From a virus, in IMG/VR virus record IMGVR_UViG_3300044675_004997, positions 1 to 22,484 of that record: a DNA stretch of 22,484 bases; one strand, given 5' to 3'. Within the stretch, counting starts at the first letter, position 1; each line of letters opens with the position of its first letter. Shown in pieces: positions 6,323-17,245 of this stretch. Under the pieces are notes generated by a model that was given only the letters and a program-made list of their open reading frames with translations, made no database searches and had not been told where the DNA came from. A program made the translations under genes and the position numbers.

Positions 6323-7588
6323 TTACGCTTGTAATGCAGTAATTGCAGTCGAGAATGTACCTTTCACAAACGCTGGAATCTCTGGAGTTTTCAAACGAGA
6401 AATGGCTCTCAATGATCCTGCAATGGTCAAGTAGTCTTTCAACACATCGTCCTCGTTTTGGTCGTATGTTTGGATTGAAAGGTTACGATACACAAACAAA
6501 CCGTACTTCGTGAAGTCTCCCATCAAGAAGTTTCCTGCAGCCATGTTGTCGTCTTCAACGATTGGAATGCCGTTAACATCAAAGCCTGTATTTGACAAAT
6601 ACAAAGGCATGATGTATTGACCTGTTGAATCTTTTAAAGTTTTTAACTTAGTTACATCAACCGGGTTCATCAATACCGCATTTGGTCTGAATGAACCTTT
6701 GCCAGCAACTCTTACTTGTAGGTAAGCGTGTTCCAAAACGTCTCTCATCGTTACGCCTGTTAGCGTACCAACGCCTGTTTGTTTTGCGAATGCCGGTGCT
6801 TGAGTATAAACACCATTGTGGTTTTCTCCGGTGTTGTTGCCCAAAAGGATTTGAGTTCCCAACTGAATCAAGAAATCTTCTGACATTTCAGCAATGGTTT
6901 CAGTCAATGCGAAAGGCAAATCACCGTCCAAATGCTCTTTTGAAATCTTAGAATAACCAGTGGTTTTCTTAGCCACCGCTTGTTCCTTATCCCATTTGTA
7001 CGAAACCTGATTGAATTTAACGCCCTCAGCCGTTTGACCAATTCCGCCTTCTGTCAAGGTTTTGATTACCCACTTCAATATTTCGTTGTTGGTTGTTCCT
7101 GTTCTGATGAAATCCAAAACCGTTGGCTTTGCTTTTGGTGCCTTAGCTATTCCAGATTCCACGTTTGCGAAAATATCCAACAAGCCCGCTGTTGCAGAAT
7201 AACCTGTTGTCATATCAGAAACCGCCTTTACATCAATGTTTTCAAAAGACATTTTCTGTCCTGATTTGATGTTTGGAATGTTTTCATCTGTGAAAACCTG
7301 AGATTTCAATGCGTGCATCAATCCGCCTTTTTGCTTTTGGCCTTCGCCTTGCTCCATTCTACCCTCCAAGCGGTCTAACTGACCTTTGGCTGCTTCGAGT
7401 GCTGATGCAGTCTTGGTTAAGTCCGCTTGCATATCGTTTAAAGACTTGGTGTCGGCCTTGTCTTTTACCATTGCTTCAAACTCTCCTTTTTGCTTTTCAA
7501 GTTGCGAGTTCAACTCTTTAAACTGCTCCTTTATTGGTGCGATTGCTTCCTCTGCAGCCGCTTTGATGTCTTTTACTTCGATTGACAT
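6323..7588 (-). CDS. HK97-type major capsid protein
   Basis: A 421-aa capsid protein of the HK97 fold. Residues 1-90 form a charged coiled coil (KEQFKELNSQLEKQKGEFEA, LEAAKGQLDRLEGRMEQ), which fits the delta/scaffold domain that the neighbouring protease removes. The rest carries typical elements: a substrate-like EILKWVIKTL strand near residue 168, FNQVSYKWDKEQAV near 192, the spine helix ALTETIAEMSEDFLIQLG, NAVLMNPVDVTKLKTLKD near 305, and a C-terminal LKDYLTIAGSLRAISRLKTP. It directly follows the prohead protease gene with an 18-base gap, the usual pair. Confidence 0.93.
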   Translation of the reverse strand: MSIEVKDIKAAAEEAIAPIKEQFKELNSQLEKQKGEFEAMVKDKADTKSLNDMQADLTKTASALEAAKGQLDRLEGRMEQGEGQKQKGGLMHALKSQVFTDENIPNIKSGQKMSFENIDVKAVSDMTTGYSATAGLLDIFANVESGIAKAPKAKPTVLDFIRTGTTNNEILKWVIKTLTEGGIGQTAEGVKFNQVSYKWDKEQAVAKKTTGYSKISKEHLDGDLPFALTETIAEMSEDFLIQLGTQILLGNNTGENHNGVYTQAPAFAKQTGVGTLTGVTMRDVLEHAYLQVRVAGKGSFRPNAVLMNPVDVTKLKTLKDSTGQYIMPLYLSNTGFDVNGIPIVEDDNMAAGNFLMGDFTKYGLFVYRNLSIQTYDQNEDDVLKDYLTIAGSLRAISRLKTPEIPAFVKGTFSTAITALQA

Positions 7589-12658: not shown

Positions 12659-12697
12659 AATAATGTTCTGTAATTAATTGTAATGCAGAACATTATT
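12659..12697. terminator. Perfect 12-bp hairpin between convergent genes
   Basis: AATAATGTTCTG at 12659-12670 pairs perfectly with CAGAACATTATT at 12686-12697 around a 15-base loop. It lies between the last island 2 gene and the TerL stop codon (12693-12695), which it overlaps. The convergent position suggests a bidirectional terminator, but no long T-run follows, so a different role such as mRNA end protection is possible. Confidence 0.5.
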
Positions 12698-13886
12698 CTG
12701 TTATAACGTACCATTCGAATTTCTTTTTGGTGGCCAAACTTTCTGCGGCATACCTAATGGCATCAATGCAATGATTGTAAGAATCAATCGGCTTGTTTAA
12801 TGTCCTACCCTCTTTGTCTTTATCCCATGAATAGTTTCGGAGTTCTTTTATCAGGTTTGTACTTCTGGAGGTTACAAGTATGTCAAACTGTTGGAGTGTA
12901 TCAATACCGAAATTGATTGAATCACGGCCTTTTAATGCTCCTTTGATTCGTACACCACCCCTTTTGATTTCTTCAATACTTTTAGGCTCTGCACTATCGG
13001 CAATGATGTAAGTAAACCCATCTGTGGTTTCTTTGGCTTTCCTGACAATATCAGCGTTAACCATTCCGGTCTGATAACATAATTCGTCAAGAATCAACTT
13101 ACCATTCCATTTCCCTAAATAAATAATGGTGGTTGGGTCGTTGGTATATCCAAAATCAAGGCCATAATTGACTATCTCGGCTTCTTTTGGTATGGTGTCA
13201 ATGATTGACCAATTAGAGAAAATAACGCCCTCAAGACTTCCAATTTCACCAAGGCCATATACATTGTACCAGTTTTCCCAAAACTTTGAAGTCTTGGCTT
13301 TTTCTTTAGCTTTTAGGATAAAATCAACGGCTGATTGTGGACACGCTTCGTTGTGGGTGTAATTGATTACGAGAAAATCAACATCCGAATCACCTTTTAA
13401 CTCTTCGTGAAACCAAAATGGGCTTGTCGGGTTCCAATCCATCCAAACGTCTTGCTTGGTTCTTGATGCAAGTTCATTGTATGCATGAAGTGTCATGTTG
13501 TTGGCTTCATTCATGTACAATATATCACGCCTTGCACCCCTTAATTTAGCGTCATTGTCTGCTGAAAAAAACTCAACCGATGATCCGTTGGCAAACCTAT
13601 AAATACTGTCTGTACTGTGCCATGCTGAATTATTCCACCGCTTGGTCTTAATCATTATTTTTTTAAAGTCTTTCATTGCACCCCTTTTAAGGTGCGGAAC
13701 TGATTCAGCTACAACTGAAACTTCAAGACCAGGGTTTTTTATGGCCTTGTTGATTAATATTGGTAGAATGCCGAACGTCTTGCCTGCTGATGTGCCACCC
13801 TGAATGCCTTTGATACGCTTTTCAAGTGCCAACATCATGTTTATAGCCGTTGTTCTTCTGAATGGCTCTGTCTCATTAGTTTGCAT
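12693..13886 (-). CDS. terL: Terminase large subunit
   Basis: A 397-aa packaging motor with ATPase and nuclease domains. Walker A is GGTSAGKT at residues 30-37. Walker B and the catalytic acid are in DILYMNEAN (Glu127). A coupling motif WNPTSPFWFH follows at 151. The C-terminal RNase H-like nuclease shows YGLDFGYTNDP (Asp244), IIADSAEPKS (Asp297) and HCIDAIRYA (Asp375), the metal-binding acids expected. It overlaps the small subunit gene by 11 bases. Length is normal for compact Terminase_3/6-type subunits. Confidence 0.95.
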   Translation of the reverse strand: MQTNETEPFRRTTAINMMLALEKRIKGIQGGTSAGKTFGILPILINKAIKNPGLEVSVVAESVPHLKRGAMKDFKKIMIKTKRWNNSAWHSTDSIYRFANGSSVEFFSADNDAKLRGARRDILYMNEANNMTLHAYNELASRTKQDVWMDWNPTSPFWFHEELKGDSDVDFLVINYTHNEACPQSAVDFILKAKEKAKTSKFWENWYNVYGLGEIGSLEGVIFSNWSIIDTIPKEAEIVNYGLDFGYTNDPTTIIYLGKWNGKLILDELCYQTGMVNADIVRKAKETTDGFTYIIADSAEPKSIEEIKRGGVRIKGALKGRDSINFGIDTLQQFDILVTSRSTNLIKELRNYSWDKDKEGRTLNKPIDSYNHCIDAIRYAAESLATKKKFEWYVITE

Positions 13887-14250
13887 CTGGGAATAATGGT
13901 TGTTCTTCGATAATCTTTAATTCCTCCCTTGCTTTACCGAATAAATAATCTCTCATGTCAATCAATGCCTTTCCTCTGCTTTGTGGTTCTGTCATTTCTT
14001 GAATGATTAATCTAATTGCCAATGGCTGGGTTTCATCTTCTGCAAGTTCCGAAATCTTGGCTTCATCAATAGAAAACAATAATGAATAGGCTTCCATAAG
14101 TTGACCCTTAGTTAATGGCTCATAGCCTTCTTTCTTCAATGTTTCATTCATTAACGAAAAAGACTTTTTTGGCCTTCCGTTTGGGTTGTTTGTTTCCCCT
14201 TTTTCGGGTCGAAGCAACATTCCTCCATGTGGTTGTTTCTCTTCTTTCAT
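13876..14250 (-). CDS. terS: Terminase small subunit-like protein
   Basis: A 124-aa protein just upstream of and overlapping terL. The N-terminal NNPNGRPKKSFS motif is a basic patch found in many small terminase-like proteins (DNA recognition). The rest is helical: TLKKEGYEPLTKGQLMEAYS, AEDETQPLAIRLIIQEM and SRGKALIDMRDYLFGKAREE. Its role would be to recognise the packaging site and pass DNA to TerL. The assignment rests mainly on position, the basic N-terminus and helical content. Confidence 0.8.
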   Translation of the reverse strand: MKEEKQPHGGMLLRPEKGETNNPNGRPKKSFSLMNETLKKEGYEPLTKGQLMEAYSLLFSIDEAKISELAEDETQPLAIRLIIQEMTEPQSRGKALIDMRDYLFGKAREELKIIEEQPLFPDAN

Positions 14251-14271: not shown

Positions 14272-14394
14272 TTAAAAAGGAACACTAACTGCTCTTCCAG
14301 TTCGTGAATCTCTTAGTGGTGTTCTTCTTGCTGCTGCGGTTGGTTTTAATTTCCCTCCACGATTCCCGCCTTTTCCGTTGCTACCGTTTGCCAT
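14272..14394 (-). CDS. Tiny basic protein (40 aa) overlapping the PLD-like gene
   Basis: ATG at 14394 opens a 40-codon frame ending TAA at 14272-14274. The protein, from MANGSNGKGGNRGGKLKPTA to RTPLRDSRTGRAVSVPF, is strongly basic and Gly-rich, like a nucleic-acid-binding peptide. Its first 49 bases overlap the end of the PLD-like gene in another frame, and 21 bases follow before terS. 'RDSRTGRxV' resembles the C-terminal tail of small Bacteroidota proteins. It may be real, but the bias in composition could also come from the overlapping frame. Confidence 0.45.
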   Translation of the reverse strand: MANGSNGKGGNRGGKLKPTAAARRTPLRDSRTGRAVSVPF

Positions 14395-15047
14395 AATTTT
14401 GACCCTCTAATGGATTTTTTAATTGTTTTATACTTATCTACAATGTTTGTCTGAAACTCATAATTGAAATCATAAAGACTTTCATTTTCTTCAATTACAA
14501 ATTGTTCGATGTTAGAACTTGTTCTGAGGTTTGCACTTCCATGTATTACGATTTTCTTACCACATTCGGTTTCTATAATACAAAGTTTACAATGTGTTCC
14601 GGCTGCTGCTAATTGGAATTTATTATCAATATCAAGTTTTTCGTATATGTAAGGAATCAGAAAACTTCTTTCATGTGAGAAAAAGAAATCTGAAACTATC
14701 AAATCAAGGCTTTGCACGAAATCACCGTTAATTAGGTTTGCGAGTGAATCAACATTGTTTTGATTCATTGAAAGTGTTGAAATAATAATTTTTTTGCAAT
14801 TCCAATTATTTTCAACAATTAACGCTTCGATAAAATCTCCAAAGAAAAATGAACCGTCTATAACTACAAAGTATCTTGATTTTTTATTGATTTTGATGTC
14901 TTTTGCTAATTTCTCAGCATTTCTATATTTGAGATACATTTCTTCAATTTCAATGGCTTGAGGTGGATTAATGTATCTGGTCGAAAACTTATTGTTAAGT
15001 TTTATGTCAATAGAAATCTTCCTTAACTCGATTGGATTATTTAACAT
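14346..15047 (-). CDS. Phospholipase D-like (HKD) nuclease-type protein
   Basis: A 233-aa protein with one HKD-type active site in the C-terminal half: H152-x-K154 in GTHCKLCIIE, followed by IVIHGSANLRTSSNIEQF (residues 166-183), where GSxN is the second signature of the PLD superfamily. The Asp of HxKxxxxD is replaced by Glu159 or lies further on. N-terminal strands such as FVVIDGSFFFGDF and LDLIVSDFFF fit the PLD fold. Single-motif PLD proteins are often dimeric nucleases. The gene is next to terS and outside the normal structural set, with its own promoter (15089-15120). A role in packaging, DNA processing or inter-phage competition is possible but unproven. Confidence 0.75.
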   Translation of the reverse strand: MLNNPIELRKISIDIKLNNKFSTRYINPPQAIEIEEMYLKYRNAEKLAKDIKINKKSRYFVVIDGSFFFGDFIEALIVENNWNCKKIIISTLSMNQNNVDSLANLINGDFVQSLDLIVSDFFFSHERSFLIPYIYEKLDIDNKFQLAAAGTHCKLCIIETECGKKIVIHGSANLRTSSNIEQFVIEENESLYDFNYEFQTNIVDKYKTIKKSIRGSKLWQTVATEKAGIVEGN

Positions 15048-16632: not shown

Positions 16633-16658
16633 TTAAGGGGAGCCAGAAACTCCCCTAA
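16633..16658 (-). terminator. Strong terminator after the structured RNA locus
   Basis: On the minus strand TTAGGGGAG pairs with CTCCCCTTAA (one bulge) around the loop TTTCTGG, followed by TTTT. It lies about 90 bases after the tRNA-like element and before the lipoprotein gene, so it probably ends the transcript that carries the structured RNA. Another 6-bp hairpin (GGTACT/AGTACC) lies between, near 16700-16730. Confidence 0.65.
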
Positions 16659-16746: not shown

Positions 16747-16804
16747 CTCCCAATGAAGGAATTGAACCTCCGACCCTTTGGCTCTACCACTGAGCTAACC
16801 GGGA
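16747..16804 (-). ncRNA. tRNA-like element lacking the anticodon arm
   Basis: On the minus strand the 7-bp acceptor TCCCGGT (16804-16798) pairs with ATTGGGA (16754-16748), including two G-U pairs. Then follow TA, a perfect D-arm GCTC-AGTGGTA-GAGC, nine bases CAAAGGGTC, a T-arm GGAGG-TTCAATT-CCTTC with consensus TTCAA, and discriminator G. A normal tRNA has about 23 bases between D-stem and T-stem; here there are nine, so the anticodon stem and loop are absent while all other parts pair well. No CCA is encoded. It cannot decode. It may be a tRNA pseudogene or a tRNA mimic recognised by RNase P and other tRNA enzymes. It starts 5 bases after the structured RNA domain on the same strand. Confidence 0.75.
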
Positions 16805-16809
16805 AAACT

Positions 16810-17029
16810 TTTTAACCGCAAAGACAATTTCCAAGTGTCGTGAAAGTTACACCCAACATTGAAACCTCGCCAGCTTGGTACTGGCTATCAGCCCCTCTGA
16901 TTGTTTCGCATTTGGTTTGCGGTTAAAAGAACTTTATTGTCGTCTCCGACCTTTGCAATCGCACCCAAAAAAATCAGGTGAAATTGTTATCGTGTCCGAG
17001 ATTAACCGTTTGCAAAAAAGGTCTCCCGG
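16810..17029 (-). ncRNA. Structured non-coding RNA locus, class not recognised
   Basis: There is no gene between 16582 and 17038, but the minus strand folds well. P1 is a perfect 13-bp stem, TTTTAACCGCAAA (16928-16916) with TTTGCGGTTAAAA (16822-16810). Nested inside are CCAA/TTGG, GAAAC/GTTTC, and a three-way junction with ATCAG-AGGGG-CTGAT (16901-16887) and GCCAG-TACCAAG-CTGGC (16885-16869), then GTGT/ACAC. The TACCAAG loop can also pair with CTTGG (16835-16831). Upstream is a second arm, CTCGGAC with GTCGGAG (17000-16994 and 16950-16944, one mismatch) containing CAAT/ATTG and CACC/GGTG. The 5' edge is uncertain because a weak hairpin plus T6 (17033-17014) after the XRE stop could be a terminator. 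I find no promoter. The strand is inferred from the tRNA-like element and the terminator. Confidence 0.65.
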
Positions 17030-17038
17030 ACTTGATGT

Positions 17039-17245
17039 TTAGAGTAATATCTCGTTTGGTGTTTTGCCTACCTCGTTGCAAAACTTTGACAAAGAATCCA
17101 TCTTTATGTCGGATTTTCCATTTTCAACACTGCTCAATGTCTCTCTGGTGATACCAAGAATTTCAGCCATTTTTTTCTGACTTAATTTCTTACGTCTCCG
17201 CTCGAGATATATCCTTTCTCCGATTTTAGACCTGTCGTATTTCAT
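17039..17245 (-). CDS. XRE-family transcriptional regulator (68 aa)
   Basis: A single-domain helix-turn-helix protein. The HTH covers about residues 21-47 (LSQKKMAEILGITRETLSSV, then ENGKSD), typical of Cro/CI-type proteins. The end KFCNEVGKTPNEILL is the usual fifth helix. The gene is the last in the RecT/exonuclease operon and overlaps the previous tiny gene as ATGA. It may control the operon's own promoter at 19844, but there is no divergent repressor pair nearby. It is the last gene before the structured RNA. Confidence 0.88.
   Translation of the reverse strand: MKYDRSKIGERIYLERRRKKLSQKKMAEILGITRETLSSVENGKSDIKMDSLSKFCNEVGKTPNEILL

Follow-up and report, generated by a model that had tools for sequence, protein, structure and literature searches.

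Few structured bacterial RNAs are as large as GOLLD and ROOL, neither of which has a known function. Elsewhere, tRNA-like elements at the 3′ end of a long RNA serve for its processing by RNase P, as in MALAT1/mascRNA and the plant mitochondrial t-elements; RNase P requires the acceptor and the T arm, not the anticodon. GOLLD and ROOL both occur near tRNA islands, tRNAs are found in the GOLLD linker, and GOLLD expression rises during lysis (PMC12286853). Mycobacterial GOLLD has a pseudo-tRNA inside (PMC6582537), and GOLLD is expressed as an RNA in its own right (PMC6582537, PMC12286853). The stretch of DNA analysed here (the window, 22,484 nt in full) carries an RNA that we conclude, from sequence comparison, to represent a new, small family of phage RNAs, with the organisation of a GOLLD or ROOL unit but membership in neither.

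The window, a phage record of 22.5 kb from IMG/VR, has genes for RecT, exonuclease, helix-turn-helix, terminase and head proteins. On the minus strand, which carries all window features given coordinates here, the order is last early gene, a 3-nt gap, the folded RNA, a 5-nt gap, a tRNA-like domain, a terminator and the packaging genes. The last early gene (17039-17245) codes for a 68-aa helix-turn-helix protein. The terminator is an intrinsic terminator-like hairpin followed by a T-rich tail (16636-16656); a different terminator occupies the same place in the relative L088 (7236-7260). The terminase module (12693-14250) comprises the large subunit (12693-13886, PHROG match) and, upstream of it, a 124-aa ORF (13876-14250) in the position of the small subunit and with no PHROG match. 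A 233-aa ORF near the terminase genes (14346-15047, minus strand) has a sole match, phrog_20533, a PHROG of unknown function. Wherever a contig extends far enough to include the terminase genes, the RNA lies upstream of them and runs in the same direction. In the window no convincing promoter of the unit's own stands out, and co-transcription with the early operon is thus possible.

The conserved folded RNA begins at 17036 and extends for some 227 nt to about 16810. At its 5′ end, helix 1 (16989-17036) pairs 17036-17016 with 17011-16989 and contains one covarying pair (G-C/A-U). The helix 2 hairpin (16956-16986) also contains one (C-G/G-C, in the relative L096), and the pairs of helix 3, a small GUCG-GAGA-CGAC hairpin (16939-16950), are invariant. 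The multi-branched domain (16810-16928) follows, closed by the stem 16928-16916/16822-16810 (TTTTAACCGCAAA/TTTGCGGTTAAAA), all 13 bp of which are perfect. Within it, the helix AUCAG/CUGAU (16887-16901) has four pairs with double-sided change in the relative L004, and its loop carries an extension of 30-36 nt in most relatives. The neighbouring helix GCCAG-UACCAAG-CUGGC (16869-16885) has two covarying pairs (U-A/C-G and A-U/G-C), which show a mosaic distribution over the phages. A loop-tail pseudoknot of CCAAG (16878-16874) with CUUGG (16835-16831) is possible; the candidate, spanning 16831-16878, is invariant in all 12 aligned sequences.

The first-pass annotation had described the multi-branched domain only, as a minus-strand RNA between 16928 and 16810 closed by a perfect 13-bp stem. 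The branched fold is indeed the minimum-energy one (−38.8 kcal/mol; z = −2.1, 7 of 200 shuffles equally good), and the stem lies where it had been placed. For 311 nt including the flanks, z falls to −2.8 and none of 100 shuffles is equally good. The window has no other perfect 13-bp inverted repeat with the span of the closing stem. When the entire window is shuffled with dinucleotides preserved, 4 of 60 shuffles contain one, so that the stem taken alone is just mildly surprising. Folding energy by itself is modest evidence, and the comparison with relatives settles the reality of the structure. The element thus stands as a structured non-coding RNA outside the known classes, whereas its limits were drawn too narrowly: three 5′ helices (17036-16939), the tRNA-like domain (16804-16748), the downstream terminator and the siting between the last early gene, which the RNA directly follows, and the terminase genes had all been missed.

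Starting from terminase and exonuclease relatives of the window, together with three conserved-pattern scans, we found the RNA in twelve further IMG/VR phage contigs (L002, L003, L004, L082, L088, L089, L090, L091, L094, L095, L096 and L099). Eleven of these and the window make up alignment A2 (n = 12); L094 repeats L088 and was left out. The aligned sequences are 226-268 nt long with a mean column identity of 90%. With the structure written out, pairing is observed in 99.8% of alignment cells, against 28-45% for control structures slid by 1-3 columns. Double-sided changes affect eight pairs in four helices, compared with 2.4 ± 1.0 in shuffles, none of 500 of which reaches eight; the sequences are few and similar, and these covariation counts therefore stand for a handful of events. 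Homologues keep the pairs by compensation. The closing stem hardly varies (10 of 11 core pairs invariant, n = 12); stem and pseudoknot give no covariation signal because they are invariant or nearly so. Insertions and deletions of 1, 8 and about 35 nt among the relatives disrupt any protein reading frame. The RNA has no Rfam match even at E ≤ 5, which bears out the first-pass statement that no known class could be recognised; loose searches gave chance matches only, for example mir-361. These comparisons confirm the observation as real, and the sequences identify the window RNA as a conserved structured non-coding RNA.

Beyond these contigs, covariance model R1 revealed no further copy among about 90 related loci, and both this model and a reading of the intergenic gaps indicate that it is absent from the terminase relatives L005-L081; five of those (L055, L056, L059, L064 and L065) have a normal tRNA-Ala(TGC) about 0.8 kb upstream of TerL. 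The phage collection contains no relative of the window RNA. A candidate from an 18-mer scan of bacterial genomes (L098) was spurious, lying in coding sequence, as did two from the viral scan (L092 and L097).

Five nucleotides 3′ of the folded RNA begins a 57-nt tRNA-like domain (16748-16804) that lacks an anticodon arm. It gives a full-length match to Rfam RF00005 (16804-16747; 39.7 bits, the gathering score being 29) in which the anticodon positions are deleted. The domain is made up of the acceptor UCCCGGU/AUUGGGA, a D arm, the 9-nt linker CAAAGGGUC and a T arm. The acceptor, D and T arms of a cloverleaf are therefore present, whereas a readable anticodon stem-loop is not, the D and T arms being only 9 nt apart; the domain as encoded cannot decode. 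ARAGORN called no tRNA here, and the encoded 3′ end is not CCA. Model R2 scores the domain at 64.7 bits, the window sequence itself being part of that model. A tmRNA was considered and rejected, there being no Rfam tmRNA match and only 9 nt between the D and T arms, where an mRNA-like tag frame would be required.

A 3′ element is found 4-11 nt after the folded RNA in the 12 relatives, and its identity differs among them. It is Asn-like in the window and L004, Leu-like in L002, L003, L095, L099, L088, L094 and L096 (two in tandem in the last three) and Gln-like in L082, L089, L090 and L091. No 3′ element of the family has a normal anticodon arm. The arm is missing from the window; in its place L004 has an 8-nt loop, the Gln-like members, whose acceptor stems are poorly paired, have a loop of 5 nt, and the Leu-like members have a long insert of about 50-140 nt. 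Within one RNA family the 3′ tRNA-like domain is thus exchangeable, to judge by the identities its sequences resemble. Comparing the second element of L088 with its orthologue in L096 gives four differences over 154 positions. Two of these make up a compensated pair in the acceptor (GGTCAGG/CCTGACC vs GGTCAAG/CTTGACC); acceptor pairing has therefore apparently been maintained after the loss of decoding. These two Leu-like elements (L088 7051-7204, L096 1604-1757) have a D-loop insert and, where the anticodon arm would be, a 10-bp stem, resembling a natural tRNA scaffold. The tandem elements of L088 are separated by about 145 nt (6905-7050), where L096 has an unrelated short spacer; the L088 spacer is possibly another small RNA. 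A group I intron at this place found no Rfam support.

Anticodon-less elements are more widespread than this family. An IMG/VR scan for D and T arms too close for an anticodon arm between them returned 105 tRNA-like stretches in phage contigs. We read 80 loci of the scan (L085 and L116-L194). The distinct elements number 68, including that of phage Danklef_1. A perfect 7-bp acceptor is present in 48 of the 68 (43 different sequences). The linker is mostly 8-9 nt and ends in C (position C48) in 54 of 56 cases, C48 lying outside the search pattern. At the 1-72 pair there is no difference from normal phage tRNAs. The window domain fits this class, with its 7-bp acceptor, D arm, linker of 8-9 nt ending in C and 5-bp T stem (alignment A5). 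The genes downstream are often TerL, portal or head genes; DNA polymerase, capsid, tail, integrase and endolysin genes also occur. This variety indicates that the class is not tied to packaging, and PHROG annotation of the neighbours ruled out a terminase-only siting.

ARAGORN misses such elements or gives an undetermined call, for example in L160. In Polaribacter phage Danklef_1 a 58-nt anticodon-less element 1.8 kb upstream of TerS is annotated ‘tRNA-OTHER, Undet (NNN)’. We found no description of the class in the open-access literature searched, and no such element in 294 Planctomycetota genomes, a weak control. An unannotated 836-nt gap between a helix-turn-helix gene and TerL in Glutamicibacter phage BIM BV-113 (L220 3750-4585) shares sequence with the region of the anticodon-less element L146.

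The same arrangement is observed beside GOLLD and ROOL. In L160, GOLLD (263 bits; locus 6773-7223) is followed 3 nt beyond by an anticodon-less element. Sister Streptococcus phages have a tRNA or tRNA-like element at the same place, 6-10 nt after GOLLD: tRNA-Phe in Javan565, tRNA-Ser in LYGO9, phiGBSVK-E1 and UPM1, a tRNA called as an ochre suppressor in Javan636, and a 113-nt tRNA-like element with a long insert in Javan584 and Javan577. In pneumococcal phages the element is degraded. The Streptococcus GOLLD loci with an exchangeable 3′ element 3-10 nt away are L160, L342, L344-L347, L351 and L352. GOLLD precedes TerS/TerL in LYGO9, Javan636, phiARI0285-1, Javan345 and K13, and in Javan565, Javan577 and Javan584 it is found between the TerL and portal genes. 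ROOL adjoins an anticodon-less element, with a 10-nt overlap, upstream of TerL in L353 (reverse strand, 1501-2129). GOLLD was present in only one of 50 anticodon-less contigs tested; among the 55 tested for ROOL, L353 was the one abutting case and another copy (L175/L354) lay 2 kb from its element, too far for the L175 phage to be counted as support. Most anticodon-less elements thus have other or no cargo.

Four points are established at the level of sequence: the fold is conserved, the tRNA-like domain cannot decode, this domain is exchangeable, and the layout recurs next to GOLLD and ROOL. The reading we favour, at roughly one chance in two, is that the locus is a non-coding RNA unit of the phage, of the GOLLD/ROOL type but built around an unrelated, smaller RNA. 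Most likely the tRNA-like tail would direct maturation by RNase P. Recognition of its acceptor, T and D arms by host RNase P, and by the enzymes that process tRNA 3′ ends, would be the reason why the domain is kept. A cut by RNase P at about 16805/16804 would set the 3′ end of the folded RNA, leaving it a short 3′ tail past the closing stem, and the tRNA-like piece would end at the acceptor stem or at the terminator. If processing alone matters, any tRNA could serve; since RNase P needs only the acceptor and T arm, the tRNA identity could drift and the anticodon arm could be lost. The freed RNA would then act at the switch from early to late infection. Several observations fit this scheme less well: the 3′ end as encoded is not CCA, the poorly paired Gln-like acceptors suit RNase P recognition badly, no convincing promoter belongs to the unit itself, and a large RNA is missing upstream of many anticodon-less elements.

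The chief rival, which we regard as unlikely, takes the whole stretch for the 3′ untranslated region of the mRNA of the early operon, whose end would be protected or trimmed by the RNA and the tRNA-like domain with no free RNA product. The RNA starts 3 nt past the stop codon of the 68-aa helix-turn-helix gene in one lineage and 3-4 nt past an unrelated 34-aa gene in a second; in L099, a third context, the distance is 15 nt past a 92-aa gene. The downstream terminator and the lack of a promoter in the window point the same way, as does the sequence upstream of anticodon-less elements, which is more structured than shuffles in 20 of 55 cases (z < −2; 13 of 55 downstream). The arrangement would be comparable to tRNA punctuation of mRNAs. 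Identity of about 90% over 230 nt, with complex junctions, is however beyond what protection demands, and the similarly placed GOLLD is expressed as its own RNA (PMC6582537, PMC12286853).

It is still less likely, in our estimate, that the 3′ domain is merely a decaying phage tRNA pseudogene beside an independent RNA. Decay does occur, full and degenerate tRNAs sharing one site in the streptococcal GOLLD phages, and the Gln-like acceptors are broken. Decay would however be expected in all arms, yet in an alignment of the 48 diverse elements acceptor pairs are kept in 92% of cells and T-stem pairs in 97%. Double-sided changes number 207 in that alignment against 64 in shuffles, a diversity partly inherited from different parent tRNAs. 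Scattered deletion sizes would also be expected, yet the linkers cluster at 8-9 nt, and the compensatory acceptor pair of L088/L096 arose after decoding had been lost.

A distinctly unlikely alternative is that the tRNA-like domain is a decoy or mimic for host or defence enzymes that bind tRNA, such as synthetases, the CCA enzyme, EF-Tu or tRNA nucleases. Some defence systems do act on tRNAs, as is generally known, and the domain retains the tRNA core (D arm, T arm, acceptor and C48) with the decoding part gone. Asn-, Leu- and Gln-like identities within one family are nevertheless unlike a decoy for a single enzyme, and the target of the anticodon nucleases has been removed along with the anticodon arm. 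A put- or EAR-like role, in which the RNA would act in cis as a leader or antiterminator of late transcription, would suit its place at the early/late boundary, co-directional with the late genes and with a terminator downstream. We consider this very improbable, as the RNA starts right at the end of an early gene with no recognisable late promoter and a tRNA-like domain inside it would not be expected. The constant position upstream of the terminase genes, and the siting of several anticodon-less elements near TerL, might recall phi29 pRNA or a pac/cos site, but a role of the RNA or its DNA in packaging is the least probable, given the lack of an Rfam match at E ≤ 5 (phage pRNA included), the compensatory changes, which point to RNA, and the other anticodon-less elements near DNA polymerase, capsid, tail or integrase genes.

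The reading of the locus as a GOLLD/ROOL-like unit has a broader form, which we put forward tentatively: anticodon-less tRNAs may be a widespread phage module for 3′ maturation, with GOLLD, ROOL and the window RNA as three unrelated cargoes sharing a position before the packaging genes. A third, much smaller family with the same layout and tail would give access to the question of how such RNAs are made, and the window RNA would be a tractable 230-nt model. The anticodon-less elements recur as a structural class, which tRNA finders overlook or call undetermined, and they provide a simple sequence signature for finding further phage RNAs.

Compared with GOLLD, the window unit is alike in being a folded phage RNA between early and terminase genes, followed within 3-10 nt by a tRNA or anticodon-less element. 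It differs in size (a 416-position model against about 230-268 nt) and in host group, and in the Rfam search the RNA did not match the GOLLD model RF02032 at E ≤ 5; the cage-like multimer is GOLLD's, the window RNA being known from its sequence. ROOL is likewise a phage RNA that, in L353, adjoins an anticodon-less element upstream of TerL, whereas its model RF03087 has 574 positions and the window RNA was unmatched to it in the same search (E ≤ 5). With tRNA (RF00005) the window domain shares the acceptor, D arm, variable loop and T arm, without the anticodon arm. The Danklef_1 element is anticodon-less and tRNA-like as in the window, but it is preceded by a simple terminator hairpin and not by the window RNA. 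MALAT1/mascRNA and the t-elements, eukaryotic or organellar, provide an analogy only. The same pairing of an RNA with a stunted tRNA beside otherwise unrelated phage RNAs suggests that phages reuse broken tRNAs as the end-pieces of large RNAs.
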